A DNA stretch of 43,827 nt from a virus. Position numbers and translations under genes: made by a program. The stretch is taken from IMG/VR virus record IMGVR_UViG_3300037847_004738, positions 1-43,827 of that record, one strand, 5' to 3'. The notes under the pieces were generated by a model. The model had not been told where the DNA came from. It saw only the letters and a program-made list of their open reading frames with translations, and did no database searches. Below are positions 14,199 through 43,783 of the stretch, piece after piece. Every line of letters begins with the position of its first letter. Within the stretch, counting starts at the first letter, position 1.

Positions 14199-14990
14199 AT
14201 GGCAACATATTATACATTATCATTTAGCGAAAACTCAAAAGGGTGGCCTTCTTTCTATACTTATAAACCTGAGATGATGGTAGGAATGAATAACTATTTT
14301 TATTCTTTCAGTGGAGGATCGCTATGGCGACATAATAGTGCATCTGTTCCTAGAAATAATTTTTATGGTATATCGGGAACGTCTATTATAACAAGTGTTA
14401 TTAATGAAAGACCACTGAGCAATAAACTATTTAAAACTTTAGAGTTAAATTCGACAGGGGCATGGAGTGTGGCGATGACCACAGATCTGCCTAATGTAGG
14501 TGAGATTAGCACTACAGATTTTGAAAAGAAAGAGGGAGACTTCTTTAGTTATATAAGAACTACGGGAGCTAACACAGCTACCGATGCAGGTAGTGAACAA
14601 TATAAGCAACGGTCTATGGGTGGTATTGGTAACATTGATACATCTACCCCTGACCCTGCAATTTGTCCTAACTGTTATGTGGTAACTTATCTTATTGACT
14701 TACCACCTATGTTAAGTGTAGGTGATGCCTTCTATGTGACTAACCAAATATCAGGACTTATAACAGATATTAATTTTGTAACCAATACTATTGTTGTTGA
14801 CTATTATGCAACACTAATACCTGCTCCTCCTGTGCCTGCACCGGGATTGTTTAGCTATTACGCTAAATCAATTACTGCAGAATCACATGGATTACTAGGT
14901 CATTATTTAGAATTTACTCTTACAAATGCCTCGGGTGGTATAGAAGAGTTGTTTGCTGTGAAGTCTGATTATATGAAAAGTTTTCCTTAA
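14199..14990 (+). CDS. Tail-region structural protein, W-P-S-F-Y-T-Y type
   Basis: A 263-aa protein. The N-terminal 110 residues contain SENSKGWPSFYTYKPEMMVG, then NNYFYSFSGGSLWRHN and FYGISGTSIITSVIN, ending SNKLFKTLELNS. This is a recognisable phage tail domain that I usually see as the C-terminal part of nozzle or fibre proteins; here it is a stand-alone gene. The rest is beta-rich with no catalytic motif. It probably assembles on the nozzle or the 1032-aa protein. It starts 20 nt after that gene and precedes a leaderless-type promoter. Confidence 0.6.
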   Translation: MATYYTLSFSENSKGWPSFYTYKPEMMVGMNNYFYSFSGGSLWRHNSASVPRNNFYGISGTSIITSVINERPLSNKLFKTLELNSTGAWSVAMTTDLPNVGEISTTDFEKKEGDFFSYIRTTGANTATDAGSEQYKQRSMGGIGNIDTSTPDPAICPNCYVVTYLIDLPPMLSVGDAFYVTNQISGLITDINFVTNTIVVDYYATLIPAPPVPAPGLFSYYAKSITAESHGLLGHYLEFTLTNASGGIEELFAVKSDYMKSFP

Positions 14991-29511: not shown

Positions 29512-30147
29512 TTAACTTTTATCAAATAACCCCCCCTGCACCGGTGTAGGTTTTATTGAAAACAAAAAGCAATTAAATATATGTAAACCCAATTCAGGAT
29601 TTACCATATTCCGTAAAACTTGTCTTTTGTTTTTTATGTTAGTATCTTTTATATTAAACCCATAAAGATCTTTATTTGGATCTAAAGTGTTGTGGATTCT
29701 TTTTGTTGTAGCTTTAAAATTACTTATTCTAAAATTTGTCCAATAAGCGTGTCGACCCATCTTGTGTGTTGGCGGTATTAAATAATTATAATATGGAATT
29801 ACATTCTCCACCACAAACTTTGTTTTCTTTTTTGCAAAATGTTGTAGAAGTATTATCTCCTGATATAAGTCCATTGCGGGATATTTAGCTTTATATTGCC
29901 CCGCATAAACACCACAGGAACGGATATTACTATGCGTTGGACAGGGTGGCGATGACCAAATGAAATCAAACTCTTCGTAATGGTTTAAGAGATATTGATG
30001 TGCGTTAGCAATAACAACCTTATCATGGGGAAATAAATCAGAATATACAGAAGCAATTTCTGTATTGTTTTCAACCGCTGTAACTTCACAATCAGTCCAC
30101 AGCTTTCTGTTTCCCCCAATTCCTGAATATAAATTTAAAACTTTCAT
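29512..30147 (-). CDS. C5-cytosine DNA methyltransferase-like protein, short
   Basis: A 211-aa protein with the SAM-binding motif VLNLYSGIGGNRKLW (residues 3-17), an acidic strand end AVENN, motif IV SSPPCPTHS (65-73, catalytic C69), motif VI FVVENV (111-116), and a motif X-like end NMVNPELGLHIF. It is shorter than stand-alone C5-methyltransferases (usually over 300 aa) and has little room for a target-recognition domain. It may be a solitary orphan enzyme with a short or degenerate specificity, protecting phage DNA from host restriction. A GAGACA-type stem-loop lies 16 nt before its ATG. Confidence 0.8.
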   Translation of the reverse strand: MKVLNLYSGIGGNRKLWTDCEVTAVENNTEIASVYSDLFPHDKVVIANAHQYLLNHYEEFDFIWSSPPCPTHSNIRSCGVYAGQYKAKYPAMDLYQEIILLQHFAKKKTKFVVENVIPYYNYLIPPTHKMGRHAYWTNFRISNFKATTKRIHNTLDPNKDLYGFNIKDTNIKNKRQVLRNMVNPELGLHIFNCFLFSIKPTPVQGGLFDKS

Positions 30148-36430: not shown

Positions 36431-36760
36431 TTAATTATTTTCTATATTATCATACTCATTTAACTCATCAAGGTAGTGTTGCCTAACCTCTTCATCCATC
36501 TCATCTGCAATGGCTTCATTTATTTCCTCCTCTTCGGATTCAATAATTTTTAGTAACTTTGTGCACACTTTTACCACAGCAAAATCATATATAGCTCCAT
36601 ACTCTTCAGCCTGAGCTAGAAAGAAGTCTTCAAAGGTGTCCTCATCTTTTACCCAATCCAAATCCTCTACACTCCCCTCGTTGCAACGCTCAAAGAATTG
36701 CTTTAAATATCCTCTACTGTTTTTTATTTCCTCTGTTAAAATATCTTTTATCTTTTCCAT
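36431..36760 (-). CDS. Acidic helical protein, unknown
   Basis: A 109-aa, strongly acidic, helical protein. The start is EKIKDILTEEIKNSRGYLKQ; the centre is DTFEDFFLAQAEEYGAIYDF; the C-terminus is EEEEINEAIADEMDEEVRQH. The composition would fit a DNA-mimic or adaptor protein, but nothing specific shows this. Its ATG lies 1 nt after the stop of the amidotransferase fusion, so it is co-translated with that unit and may belong to it. Confidence 0.6.
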   Translation of the reverse strand: MEKIKDILTEEIKNSRGYLKQFFERCNEGSVEDLDWVKDEDTFEDFFLAQAEEYGAIYDFAVVKVCTKLLKIIESEEEEINEAIADEMDEEVRQHYLDELNEYDNIENN

Positions 36761-36761
36761 A

Positions 36762-37868
36762 TTAAATTAATTGTAATTGATTATCACTATACCAATCATC
36801 ACATCTTGTACATGCCCAACTATTAAACCCATCATACTGTAGTTTATCGTAACAGTTCTCACAATAATAGGTCTCCTCGTTTTTAGTTACTGTCAGTGTC
36901 TCGGTCATTGTTTCTTGTTCGTGTAGGTCTCTCCATCTATCGTTAGTTTCTACCTTGTAGGTGTCATGCCAATCCCAACCACTCAGATAGCCCCCACCAT
37001 ATCCACCATACCATGAATAGTTTTGCTTATAAGATTTGTGAAGTTTTGTGTGGGGCGTAATGGTTTTAGGATTAAAGTATATCCAAGCCATGATTGTCTT
37101 ACCACTTTTCTTCATCCTTATAGGTATACGCTCCCTCTTGTACCAATCGGGGTGTCTCTCTAAACTATCTATAGCTTTAAGAGTAGAGGGGGAGACCTTG
37201 AATACATCTACCTCTACATTGTGTCCTAATCCCTTTTGGTTTACAACATAAGGTAATCCATCTATTACTAATGGGTACTTGTCTTTAGTTTCTCCGGCTC
37301 CCACCATTCGTGAATCACGGTGAAGATAAGAATAGTAATTACTATATCCCTTCTTCAGTGTACCATATACAGCAATAGGGATTACTTGTAACACATTGTC
37401 TTTAGAATACCACACATCATCATGCTTAATCCAATCTTCTCTGTTGTACATTTGAAAGCTCTTCTTCTTTAGGTTTATTGTTGTAAACCTACAGTCATAC
37501 TGTTCTAGCTCATGTCTCCACTCCTGCCTTGGGATTGTAGCTAGGTGGTCTGCCATACATTTGGTGTCGCACTCTTCTTTACTACCCATACCATATATAG
37601 TTCCGTTCTGCATAAGGTACTCACCTGTGTTTCCACACTTGAAAGGGTGCATGTTCTTCTTGTTTACAGCACCTACCGTTGCATACCTGAAGTGAGCTAT
37701 AAAAGGTCTCTCGGTATCTAGTATCTTGTATTTATCTGACTTGTGGTAGCTTAACTCATAGCTATCTAGCCATATAACTCCAAGACCATGAGGGTTTACT
37801 TTGGCGGATCGCTTTAGTATCTCCCTGTCTATCTTTTGTTTCTTTTGTTTGATTATTATTACACACAT
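36762..37868 (-). CDS. Class II glutamine amidotransferase - gamma-glutamylcyclotransferase - zinc ribbon fusion
   Basis: A 368-aa three-domain protein. Domain 1 (1-160) is a class II (Ntn) glutamine amidotransferase: Met removal would expose C2; NPHGLG (25-30), AHFRYATVG (58-66), HPF (74-76) and QNGTIYG (87-93) form the glutamine site. Domain 2 (about 163-270) is a GGCT/AIG2-like cyclotransferase: VYGTLKKGYSNY (167-178), MVGAG, then DSLE with the likely catalytic E237 and WIYF. Domain 3 (about 334-360) is a zinc ribbon, C336-x2-C339 and C353-x2-C356. A Tyr/Gly-rich linker (287-296) joins them. It lies 15 nt after the amidoligase gene. Known logic: glutamine gives ammonia, the ligase makes an amide, and GGCT cleaves gamma-glutamyl amides; the substrate here is unknown. 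Confidence 0.85.
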   Translation of the reverse strand: MCVIIIKQKKQKIDREILKRSAKVNPHGLGVIWLDSYELSYHKSDKYKILDTERPFIAHFRYATVGAVNKKNMHPFKCGNTGEYLMQNGTIYGMGSKEECDTKCMADHLATIPRQEWRHELEQYDCRFTTINLKKKSFQMYNREDWIKHDDVWYSKDNVLQVIPIAVYGTLKKGYSNYYSYLHRDSRMVGAGETKDKYPLVIDGLPYVVNQKGLGHNVEVDVFKVSPSTLKAIDSLERHPDWYKRERIPIRMKKSGKTIMAWIYFNPKTITPHTKLHKSYKQNYSWYGGYGGGYLSGWDWHDTYKVETNDRWRDLHEQETMTETLTVTKNEETYYCENCYDKLQYDGFNSWACTRCDDWYSDNQLQLI

Positions 37869-37883
37869 TTTGAATTTATTTAT

Positions 37884-38894
37884 TTAGTTAGTTATTAATT
37901 GTTCTATTTGTGAATAGTCACTGTCTACTTGCACCGCCTGATACCTGTCCGAACTCCTTAAGAAACTCTCTATCTCTGAGGTGTAAGTGTTTCGTACTAT
38001 AAAGTTTCGGAAATCGTGTGCCATCCGTAGAATCTGAGCTGTCTTTATTTCATCTCCCCCATACATCATCTTAACAATGGGTTTGACTCGCTTGAGTAAT
38101 GACTTATGCTTTGCTGTTGGTGTATTAAAACTAAAGTCCATTATCTCATACATCAACTCATATCTCCGTATCATTTGTGGTACTGAAGTAAAACGACTGA
38201 ACAGTCTCACTTCATAGGCACACTCTTTTGGTAAAGCAACAGAGTATCTGTTACTCCTATGAGCTTTTAGTCTTGGATTAGCATAGCAGTATTCATTGTT
38301 TAGTCTCAGCCTGTTTAAAGCTAAGATAATACCCATATTCTTTCGCATAGTTCTCCGTATCTCATCTCCTGAGTATTTTCTACCGTTCTCATCTATAGCT
38401 CCCACTGTAATATGTCCACCACAACGGCGATTGCTTGGAGAATAATCATCATCAATAACACACTCTGCCTCCCACATCATGTTGAATACTTTATTTCTCC
38501 ACTTTCCTGAAGGTAGTAAAGGTAGTATATTGGTTATAGCTTCTCTGCCATCATACCCGCTATCATATCCACATGAAGAGTCTCTTTCAAATCCTTTGAG
38601 TAACGCAAACTCTTGTTCACAGCACTCATCAAATTCATTCTTCTCTATCTCCATGCCTATAGTAAATCGAGCCTCGTGTTCATATTGAGTTCCTTGATAG
38701 GGTGTAGCATTGAACACTGATTCATTACAGAAACAGGGTGGATCTACTTTTCTGATGCTCTTTAGTCCTTTTGCTTTGAGCCCCTCTACATCGCCTTTCT
38801 TAGCTCTGTTTAAGGGGATTGGTCTTGGTGAATAGTGATAAGCGTGGACGACTTCTCCACTCCGACCACTCTGACCGGTTAATTTGTAATCCAT
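37884..38894 (-). CDS. Amidoligase (COOH-NH2 ligase, glutamine-synthetase-like fold)
   Basis: A 336-aa protein matching the putative amidoligase family (PF12224-like). RFTIGMEIEKNEF (76-88, metal/ATP Glu residues), D105 in ERDSSCGYD followed by E118 in GREAIT, CGGHITVGA (158-166, glycine-His motif), R/Y elements near 210-220, and YEVRLFSRF (227-235). The family forms amide or peptide bonds using ATP and is related to glutamine synthetase and gamma-glutamylcysteine ligase. The N-terminal 70 residues are extra, with C54 and C56. Paired with a class II amidotransferase-GGCT fusion downstream, it suggests a dedicated amide-forming pathway, perhaps on a protein, peptide or cell-wall group. A pseudoknot-like leader precedes it. 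Confidence 0.85.
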   Translation of the reverse strand: MDYKLTGQSGRSGEVVHAYHYSPRPIPLNRAKKGDVEGLKAKGLKSIRKVDPPCFCNESVFNATPYQGTQYEHEARFTIGMEIEKNEFDECCEQEFALLKGFERDSSCGYDSGYDGREAITNILPLLPSGKWRNKVFNMMWEAECVIDDDYSPSNRRCGGHITVGAIDENGRKYSGDEIRRTMRKNMGIILALNRLRLNNEYCYANPRLKAHRSNRYSVALPKECAYEVRLFSRFTSVPQMIRRYELMYEIMDFSFNTPTAKHKSLLKRVKPIVKMMYGGDEIKTAQILRMAHDFRNFIVRNTYTSEIESFLRSSDRYQAVQVDSDYSQIEQLITN

Positions 38895-38922
38895 ATTTAG
38901 TAAATTTAATTTAGTTAACTTT

Positions 38923-38960
38923 GTAGGTTATTGTTTAAGCACCAACCTACTTGAGTGCTT
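38923..38960 (-). promoter_or_regulatory. Possible H-type pseudoknot in the amidoligase leader
   Basis: On the minus strand: AAGCAC (stem 1), TCAA, GTAGGTT (stem 2), G, GTGCTT (stem 1), AAACAAT, AACCTAC (stem 2). Stems of 6 and 7 bp are perfect and interlocked, and loops of 4, 1 and 7 nt (the last A-rich) fit classical H-type geometry. It begins in the stop of the 45-aa gene and ends 28 nt before the amidoligase ATG. Confidence 0.55.
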
Positions 38961-39097
38961 TACTTATAGCTTTTTAAAATCTCTTGTAATCTGCGTTTTA
39001 AACTTTTAATATCATAAACTTTTTTATACTTCTTATCATAGGTATAGTTAACTCCTACAATTAAGTCCTCTTGGTATATGCCTTTAGTCTTATCCAT
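38960..39097 (-). CDS. Small basic protein, leader-peptide-like, unknown
   Basis: A 45-aa ORF from ATG 39097 (MDKTKGIYQEDLIVGVNYTY, ending RRLQEILKSYK). A longer form from 39205 is open, but it would run through a hairpin and stem-loop copy 4, so I prefer the shorter start, which gives the same stem-loop-then-ATG layout as copies 1 and 3 (23 nt here). Basic, no known motif. It is the first gene of the amidoligase unit and its stop overlaps the pseudoknot, so it might work as a leader ORF. Confidence 0.5.
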   Translation of the reverse strand: MDKTKGIYQEDLIVGVNYTYDKKYKKVYDIKSLKRRLQEILKSYK

Positions 39098-39120
39098 AAT
39101 TACTTTTTTAATTAACACTG

Positions 39121-39138
39121 TGTCTCGTTGACGAAACA
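39121..39138 (-). promoter_or_regulatory. GAGACA stem-loop copy 4 (one base changed), before the amidoligase unit
   Basis: Plus strand TGTCTCGTTGACGAAACA. In the minus-strand transcript this is UGUUUCGU-CA-ACGAGACA, where the change gives a U-G wobble and keeps all pairs; the plus-strand RNA would have an A-C mismatch. It lies 23 nt before ATG 39097. Confidence 0.75.
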
Positions 39139-39151
39139 TTTTATTTAAGGT

Positions 39152-39177
39152 AAGTAAACACGACATACAGTTTACTT
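39152..39177 (-). promoter_or_regulatory. Leader stem-loop AAGTAAAC/GTTTACTT
   Basis: Perfect 8-bp arms (39152-39159 and 39170-39177) with a 10-nt loop in the 5' leader between the promoter at 39224 and stem-loop copy 4. No T-tract. Could be an operator or an RNA structure. Confidence 0.5.
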
Positions 39178-39223
39178 TTACAGATTTGATTTCTCCTAAA
39201 TCCAACCTTTATGTTTATATTAT

Positions 39224-39256
39224 ACAAATATACGACTATATTTAGACATATACAAA
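39224..39256 (-). promoter_or_regulatory. Early promoter TTTG-N20-TATATTTGT
   Basis: Minus strand: TTTG at 39256-39253, 20 nt, then TATATTTGT at 39232-39224. It shares AGTTTG and GTCGTATATTTGTA with the promoter at 42930. It drives the 45-aa ORF, amidoligase and amidotransferase genes with a leader of about 120 nt. Confidence 0.8.
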
Positions 39257-42929: not shown

Positions 42930-42962
42930 ACAAATATACGACAATTAGACGACTTTACCAAA
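42930..42962 (-). promoter_or_regulatory. Early promoter TTTG-N20-TATATTTGT
   Basis: Minus strand: TTTG at 42962-42959, 20 nt, TATATTTGT at 42938-42930; AGTTTG and GTCGTATATTTGTA are shared with the promoter at 39224. It drives the small early genes leftwards. Confidence 0.8.
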
Positions 42963-43087: not shown

Positions 43088-43783
43088 CTATTCATTTTCT
43101 GCGTTCATTAGTTCGGCTTGTGCGATTCGTTGAGCTTCGCTTTTCATTGCTTCCTTGATGAATTTAACAACTTTTTGGAGTTCTTGTTGAGTGTTTGAAG
43201 TCTTTACTTCGCCGTTAGGTGTAATTCTTAACGCAAAATTTCGAGTTAAACCCTCAATAAAATCAGCTTGAGCCGTACAAGTAAAAACATTTTTTGTGTT
43301 ACTTGTGCTTCGAGTTTGTGCTAATGGTGATTGTCCACCTGTCGCTTTCTCACTTCGAACAAAAGAATTAAACCCTTCAATACTTAATTGGGGATTCTCG
43401 CCACTTTGTCTTTCGCTTTTTACTCTGTCGGTGTATTCTTTCTTCCAATTCTTAGAACTATCTTCGATATTTTCCCCCATAGTTTTAAGTTTATTAAATT
43501 GGCTTCTTGAATATCCGAACCCCTTTTCACCAAATTCTGCTAAAGTAAGTTCGATTCCGTGTTCCTTTCTCGCTTCTTTACTTTCGGCAGTTTTAAACCA
43601 TTTATAAGACTTGTAAACTATTTTTGCCATCTCTACTGAAGACTCGAACAGGCTTGTTTGTCTGTTTTCAATATCCTGTTTTAATTGTCCGATCTTTTCA
43701 ATGTTTACAACTCGCTTAACTTTAGTAATGTTAAAGAATGCTCTTTCGCTTGAATTTAGATTTTTTATAATTGAATTTTCCAT
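43088..43783 (-). CDS. Unknown early protein, possibly DNA-binding
   Basis: A 231-aa basic, helical protein alone in its transcription unit. Residues 25-60 are a helix-rich region (LKQDIENRQTSLFESSVEMA), then EFGEKGFGYSRSQFNKLKTM (about 82-101), which could be a helix-turn-helix; a Ser/Gln/Gly-rich linker (about 120-160); and a C-terminal helix (QELQKVVKFIKEAMKSEAQR). It looks like an early regulator or replication accessory. No match I can name; ParB/KfrA-like roles were considered and not supported. Leader AAATTTATTTATT before ATGG. Confidence 0.6.
   Translation of the reverse strand: MENSIIKNLNSSERAFFNITKVKRVVNIEKIGQLKQDIENRQTSLFESSVEMAKIVYKSYKWFKTAESKEARKEHGIELTLAEFGEKGFGYSRSQFNKLKTMGENIEDSSKNWKKEYTDRVKSERQSGENPQLSIEGFNSFVRSEKATGGQSPLAQTRSTSNTKNVFTCTAQADFIEGLTRNFALRITPNGEVKTSNTQQELQKVVKFIKEAMKSEAQRIAQAELMNAENE

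Follow-up and report, generated by a model that had tools for sequence, protein, structure and literature searches.

The DNA analysed here, referred to as the window, is a 43,827-base IMG/VR virus record, likely a fragment of a longer phage genome, to judge by its many relatives of 55-69 kb. Inspection of its open reading frames located, on the minus strand, an amidoligase gene (P0001) followed by a gene encoding a fusion protein (P0002), whose features are collected in Table 1. The two genes are separated by 15 nt, and the ORF coordinates bore out the earlier claim of a pair with this spacing at 36762-38894. An acidic ORF of 109 aa (36431-36760) has its first base 1 nt past the P0002 stop, and a further ORF (38960-39205), also on the minus strand, lies ahead of the amidoligase gene. 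The leader directly 5' of the amidoligase start (38895-38960, minus strand) contains a hairpin, GUAGGUU ... AACCUAC, with a folding energy of -10.4 kcal/mol and a z of -1.65, which is not significant alone.

Table 1. Features of the amidoligase/fusion gene pair in the window
Feature	Coordinates	Strand	Remark
Amidoligase gene P0001	37884-38894	-	336 aa ORF
Motif E82-x-E84 of P0001	38643-38651	-	Predicted metal/ATP site; aligns with GIELE of C75C1 amidoligase
Motif C158-G-G-H161 of P0001	38412-38423	-	Aligns with G-x-H-x-H motif
Motif E228-x-R230 of P0001	38205-38213	-	Aligns with IEFR/VEIR of Amidoligase_2
Fusion gene P0002	36762-37868	-	368 aa ORF
Class II glutamine amidotransferase (GATase; Ntn glutaminase) domain, P0002 residues 1-161	37386-37868	-	Nucleophile Cys2
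Gamma-glutamylamine cyclotransferase (GGACT/AIG2) domain, P0002 residues 165-267	37068-37376	-	PF06094
Predicted catalytic glutamate E237 of P0002	37158-37160	-	GGACT alignment
Zinc ribbon, P0002 C-terminus (C336-x2-C339 ... C353-x2-C356)	36792-36863	-	

Comparison of P0001 with Pfam and PHROG revealed no match at E<=1, so its placement in a family needed profile-profile and structure comparison. Searches of viral contigs with the single sequence gave no match either, and alignments were required as queries. The resulting family alignment held 64 sequences (P0001 and 63 relatives), none of which was recognized by the Pfam model of Amidoligase_2 (PF12224) at E<=1; nine of the 64 weakly matched a PHROG amidoligase (best E 9e-4). 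This family was compared by hhalign with an alignment of 12 phage amidoligases, from C75C1, MEP401, LUZ24, phiEco32 and RIO-1 and from Bacillus, Porphyromonas, Arthrobacter, Geobacillus, Vibrio, Faecalibacterium and Faecalimonas phages. The match to these Amidoligase_2 proteins extended over 188 columns (E=5.7e-8, probability 94.7%), with the E-x-E, D-x-S, E, G-x-H and E-x-R columns collinear between both families; two unrelated profiles used as controls gave E 0.15-0.17 and a probability of 0.4%. Residues E82, E84, C158, H161, E228 and R230 were invariant in the 64-sequence alignment and G159, G160 and T163 nearly so, a conservation of motifs that, to judge from the alignment, is far beyond chance. 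The second histidine of the G-x-H-x-H motif is replaced in P0001, where T163 aligns with H125 of the C75C1 amidoligase.

The AlphaFold model of P0001 was confident (pLDDT 88.7). Foldseek searches of the PDB with this model placed glutamine synthetases (GS) on top (probability 0.97-1.00, E 2e-4 to 1e-3), with TM-scores of only about 0.3, and the match is therefore one at the level of topology. Its fold neighbours included enzymes forming gamma-glutamyl bonds, namely GmaS (9qur and 7cqn), YbdK (1r8g) and, as a weak match (E=0.013, TM 0.27), PafA (4bjr). In BFVD, entries named amidoligase from many phages were matched with E about 1e-6. Sequence searches of the PDB gave no match with the P0001-family profile, and a single chance match (E=0.14) with canonical amidoligases. 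Altogether, relatives, hhalign and AlphaFold/Foldseek results indicate that P0001 is a divergent amidoligase (COOH-NH2 ligase) of the glutamine-synthetase fold, and the E-x-E, G-G-H and E-x-R motifs by which it had originally been recognized are those found (nearly) invariant in the 64 homologues.

In P0002, the central domain was readily assigned, with a match to the Pfam GGACT family PF06094 at E=1.8e-20 and 74.1 bits (gathering cut-off 22.8). The matches of the N-terminal domain to GATase_6 (E=2.1e-4) and GATase_4 were below the curated Pfam cut-offs, and PHROG 4736 was matched with E=1.5e-7. When the P0002 family profile was searched against PDB sequences, human and mouse GGACT were the best matches (E about 2e-14) and GlmS-type glutaminases were matched weakly; a PDB search with the GATase domain as a single sequence was uninformative. 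The AlphaFold model (pLDDT 85) led to a similar picture: Foldseek matched the GATase domain to the glutaminase domains of GlmS and GFAT (E 2e-5 to 1.6e-4) and also to AsnB, and human and mouse GGACT were the best PDB folds for the cyclotransferase domain (3jub, TM 0.75 by target length).

Conservation of the catalytic residues was analysed in 59 P0002 homologues. Residues C2, H59-F-R61, N88-G89 and D101 of the GATase domain were invariant in this set, as were Y168-G-T-L171, E237, Y243 and Y264 of the GGACT domain. The GATase residues comprise the Cys directly behind the initiator Met, the HxR and NG motifs and the glutamine-pocket Asp expected of the class II type. Those of the GGACT domain align with Tyr7-Gly8-Thr9-Leu10, Glu82, Tyr88 and Tyr115 of GGACT, which form part of the published catalytic site (PMC2954230); this comparison covers the seven alignable residues and leaves out the equivalents of Ile50 and Tyr143. 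At the C-terminus, C336, C339, C353 and C356 were kept in 96% of 90 homologues. P0002 is thus a class II GATase joined to a GGACT domain and a C-terminal zinc ribbon, and the PF06094 match, the Foldseek results and the invariant residues sustain the fusion as it had been described earlier, with C2, YGTLKKG and E237 as its landmarks. The earlier note had tied its reading to the placement of both proteins by profile searches and to the conservation of their catalytic residues in relatives; both were found, but simple Pfam and PHROG scans overlook the amidoligase. We hold the enzyme identities of P0001 and P0002 with high confidence.

To describe the linkage of both genes, each protein family was searched in IMG/VR, which gave 80 loci per family; the two sets overlap because many loci lie on the same contigs. 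In phages of about 60 kb, the ligase was located upstream of the fusion gene on the same strand in 146 of the 147 loci holding both. The distance between them in these 147 loci is normally 1-4 kb (median about 1.9 kb), and gaps below 400 nt were limited to the window, MW202828 and two other loci, the 15-nt spacing in the window being unusually tight. Several apparent singletons corresponded to opposite ends of one contig, and the remaining records lacking a partner are 16-56 kb long and may be fragments. As regards the fusion, 46 of the 47 records that measure 55-69 kb contained the GGACT domain, once each. Its open frame spans 350-407 residues in each of these 46 records, in which it is therefore fused; the GGACT-type frames of LUZ24, phiEco32 and RIO-1 have 140-157 residues. 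A widespread group of about 60-kb phages thus carries a ligase family that standard annotation misses, recording it as "hypothetical".

The partner domains are not universal. In record G010 (locus L065) the GATase is present and the GGACT domain absent, phage MEP401 keeps ligase and GATase and lacks GGACT, and phages GR1 and 055SW001 carry ligase and GGACT with no GATase match. Since GATase and GGCT are each sometimes missing, no single obligatory three-step reaction is established, and their dispensability in L065, MEP401, GR1 and 055SW001 argues that ligation is the core activity, with GATase and GGACT as helpers. The GATase of L065 (6221-7144) lies upstream of the ligase and has several C-x2-C pairs at its C-terminus.

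Genes flanking the pair are also conserved. Downstream lie genes for a DnaA-like protein, a Sak annealing protein and an exonuclease, and upstream a gene like that at 43088-43783 (-) of the window; the latter encodes a 231-aa protein, and members of its family lie ahead of the amidoligase in 88 of the 97 related loci. The pair is thus placed in the early, replication-side region; its conserved neighbours are replication and recombination genes, and no cell-wall gene was linked to it, a point against a wall target. For the acidic 109-aa ORF, suggested earlier as a partner, a homologue was lacking in all 165 related loci, and clustering the neighbourhoods of 97 loci gave it no match, which leaves that suggestion unsupported; it was discarded as a partner together with the following 72-aa ORF, which had no homologue in related loci either. 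Elsewhere in the window, a 211 aa protein (29512-30147, minus strand) matched C5 cytosine methyltransferases over the N-terminal third of the Pfam profile only, and is possibly truncated.

The host probably belongs to the Bacteroidota, as suggested, not proven, by several hints: a BT4734-like primase domain in the window, A/T-rich leaders with no obvious Shine-Dalgarno sequence, two relatives binned with Cytophagales and Flavobacteriales, and a crAssvirus muzzle C-terminal domain (PF25729, E=3e-13) encoded at 14199-14990 (+). The PF25729 protein also hints that this smaller phage may have a podovirus tail of crAss-like structure. Bacteroidota-type promoters gave four matches for 1.45 expected, a number reached in 4 of 100 shuffles and only suggestive. 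The matches at 39225-39256 (-) and 42931-42962 (-) read TTTG ... TATATTTG, with GTCGTATATTTG identical in both, and are likewise suggestive only; about 20 nt separate the first from ORF 38960-39205, which lies downstream of it.

Cassettes of amidoligase, GATase and GGCT recur in unrelated phages. Separate genes encode amidoligase, GATase, GGCT and ATP-grasp in LUZ24, phiEco32, RIO-1 and Vibrio phage 275E43-1, and all but the Vibrio phage also have an annotated COOH-NH2 ligase. In Arthrobacter phage Salgado, amidoligase, GATase and GGCT likewise each have a gene of their own. The earlier note was right to tie the pair to predicted amidoligase neighbourhoods. Because GATase and GGCT are separate in these amidoligase-bearing phages, their fusion in P0002 counts as Rosetta-stone evidence. 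The near-universal co-occurrence of ligase and fusion gene and the joining of proteins that are separate elsewhere support the common pathway claimed earlier, in which P0001 and P0002 very probably act.

Neither the COOH-NH2 ligase family PF14395 nor the ATP-grasp profile was detected in the window, and its 47 large relatives gave no match to them either. As controls, PF14395 was detected in LUZ24 and phiEco32, not in RIO-1, and the ATP-grasp profile recovered the phages whose proteins it was built from (LUZ24, phiEco32 and RIO-1) as well as Vibrio phage 275E43-1. This profile took the place of PF08443 (RimK), which was dropped because it was too insensitive and missed LUZ24.

On the basis of family chemistry, the GATase domain would hydrolyse glutamine to ammonia and glutamate, and the GS-fold amidoligase would use ATP to activate a carboxylate as an acyl phosphate, which could then be joined to ammonia or an amine in an amide or gamma-glutamyl-amine bond. 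By releasing gamma-glutamyl groups that have a free alpha-amine as 5-oxoproline, the GGACT domain would edit or erase the bond type made by the ligase, and the zinc ribbon probably serves to hold the substrate or a partner. Such an add-and-remove scheme is attractive because the ligase and cyclase families both act on gamma-glutamyl-amine bonds: the fold neighbours GmaS, YbdK and PafA form the bond type that GGACT cleaves.

As to the target, the cassette of LUZ24, phiEco32, RIO-1 and PSA-HP1 is termed a "peptidoglycan modification" cassette and credited to Iyer et al. 2009 and Hardies et al. 2013 in three papers (PMC5498523, PMC10580990, PMC6256558). The role proposed for it, in these and two further papers, is peptidoglycan modification and superinfection exclusion (PMC5498523, PMC11945000, PMC10580990, PMC6256558, PMC11318856). 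Peptidoglycan, as proposed for this related cassette in PMC5498523, PMC11945000 and PMC6256558, was one of the three options of the earlier note; among the papers found, none reports an activity, reaction or target for phage amidoligase/GATase/GGCT cassettes. Our best guess for the target is a host cell-wall peptide or precursor, for instance by amidation of a stem-peptide carboxylate or by reversible gamma-glutamylation of a free diaminopimelate amine, and this modification might alter the cell surface and hinder superinfection. Formation of 5-oxoproline suggests that GGACT chemistry requires a free alpha-amine. The gamma-D-Glu of an intact stem peptide has none, so unmodified peptidoglycan would be no obvious GGACT substrate, and, if the wall is the target, added gamma-glutamylation or amidation would be likelier than cutting of a native bond. 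The whole model, an amide-bond modification unit working in three steps on a host cell-wall peptide or precursor, is proposed tentatively, at a little below an even chance.

The similarity to GGACT is also relevant to a different target. Human GGACT acts on gamma-glutamyl-epsilon-lysine, and GGACT is the closest cyclotransferase type to P0002 by sequence and fold. The lysines or carboxylates that the unit modifies, by amidation or reversible gamma-glutamylation, might therefore belong to a protein of the host or the virion, and gamma-glutamyl-epsilon-lysine isopeptides would then be cut by GGACT. The presence among the P0001 fold neighbours of PafA, a GS-fold ligase making gamma-Glu-Lys isopeptides, the ability that a zinc ribbon could have to bind protein or nucleic acid, and the location in the early replication region are consistent with it; however, the PafA match is weak and the genes linked to the pair include neither a tag protein nor a conserved substrate, and we regard protein modification as a minority possibility. 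The same GS-fold relatives, GmaS and YbdK, and the cleavage of gamma-glutamyl-amines by the GGACT family would also fit a metabolic role, in which gamma-glutamyl-amines or glutamine are made or broken, routing nitrogen or polyamine-like amines during infection; one phage paper reads GGCT and GATase as degradation/recycling genes (PMC5498523). Such a salvage route, however, needs no dedicated GATase and zinc ribbon fused to GGACT, and no other amine genes are linked to the pair, which makes it rather unlikely. The replication and recombination genes around the pair could point instead to DNA base hypermodification, with ligase and GATase decorating a nucleotide side chain. This reading is ranked low because the supporting genes are lacking (hydroxymethylase, base-pyrophosphorylating and deazaguanine genes were all missing from the window proteins scanned), the ligase fold neighbours do not act on DNA, and we consider it highly improbable.

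A more specific form of the add-and-remove scheme would be a self-contained two-gene writer/eraser acting during infection. A particular host target would have its lysine or diaminopimelate amines reversibly gamma-glutamylated (or amidated) by the ligase, and a single polypeptide would both supply the ammonia and take the mark off again, its zinc ribbon selecting the target. As a whole this is improbable; if true, phages would possess a kind of reversible tagging that has not been described so far. With the cassette reduced to two genes, and with glutaminase and cyclotransferase joined, reconstitution and testing of the pathway become much easier.

The pair can be compared with several known systems. 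With GGACT/A2LD1, P0002 has in common the fold and the seven catalytic residues (Y-G-T-L, E, Y, Y), but only in P0002 is this domain part of a longer protein with a GATase and a zinc ribbon. The P0001 family exhibits the G-x-E-x-E, D-x-S, E, G-x-H and E-x-R motifs of Amidoligase_2 (PF12224) and differs in its own N-terminal region, in a threonine for the second histidine and in being missed by the Pfam model. An amidoligase along with a GATase-GGCT fusion was also found in phages C75C1 (OQ984151) and MW202828; in the former the ligase is a canonical PF12224 member and the fusion has no zinc ribbon, whereas the amidoligase of the latter (locus L004, 7290-9014), a hypothetical protein by annotation, is extended at its N-terminus by about 230 aa. 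MW202828 also encodes GroEL and a chaperonin-10 protein. Like the window, the LUZ24/phiEco32/RIO-1/PSA-HP1 cassette combines an amidoligase, a class II GATase and a GGACT-type cyclotransferase in the early region. In contrast to it, the window joins GATase, GGACT and zinc ribbon in one protein, its ligase family is divergent, and ATP-grasp and COOH-NH2 ligase are absent from its 47 large relatives and from the window, itself probably a fragment. The pair is a new, compact and widespread form of this known predicted phage cassette.
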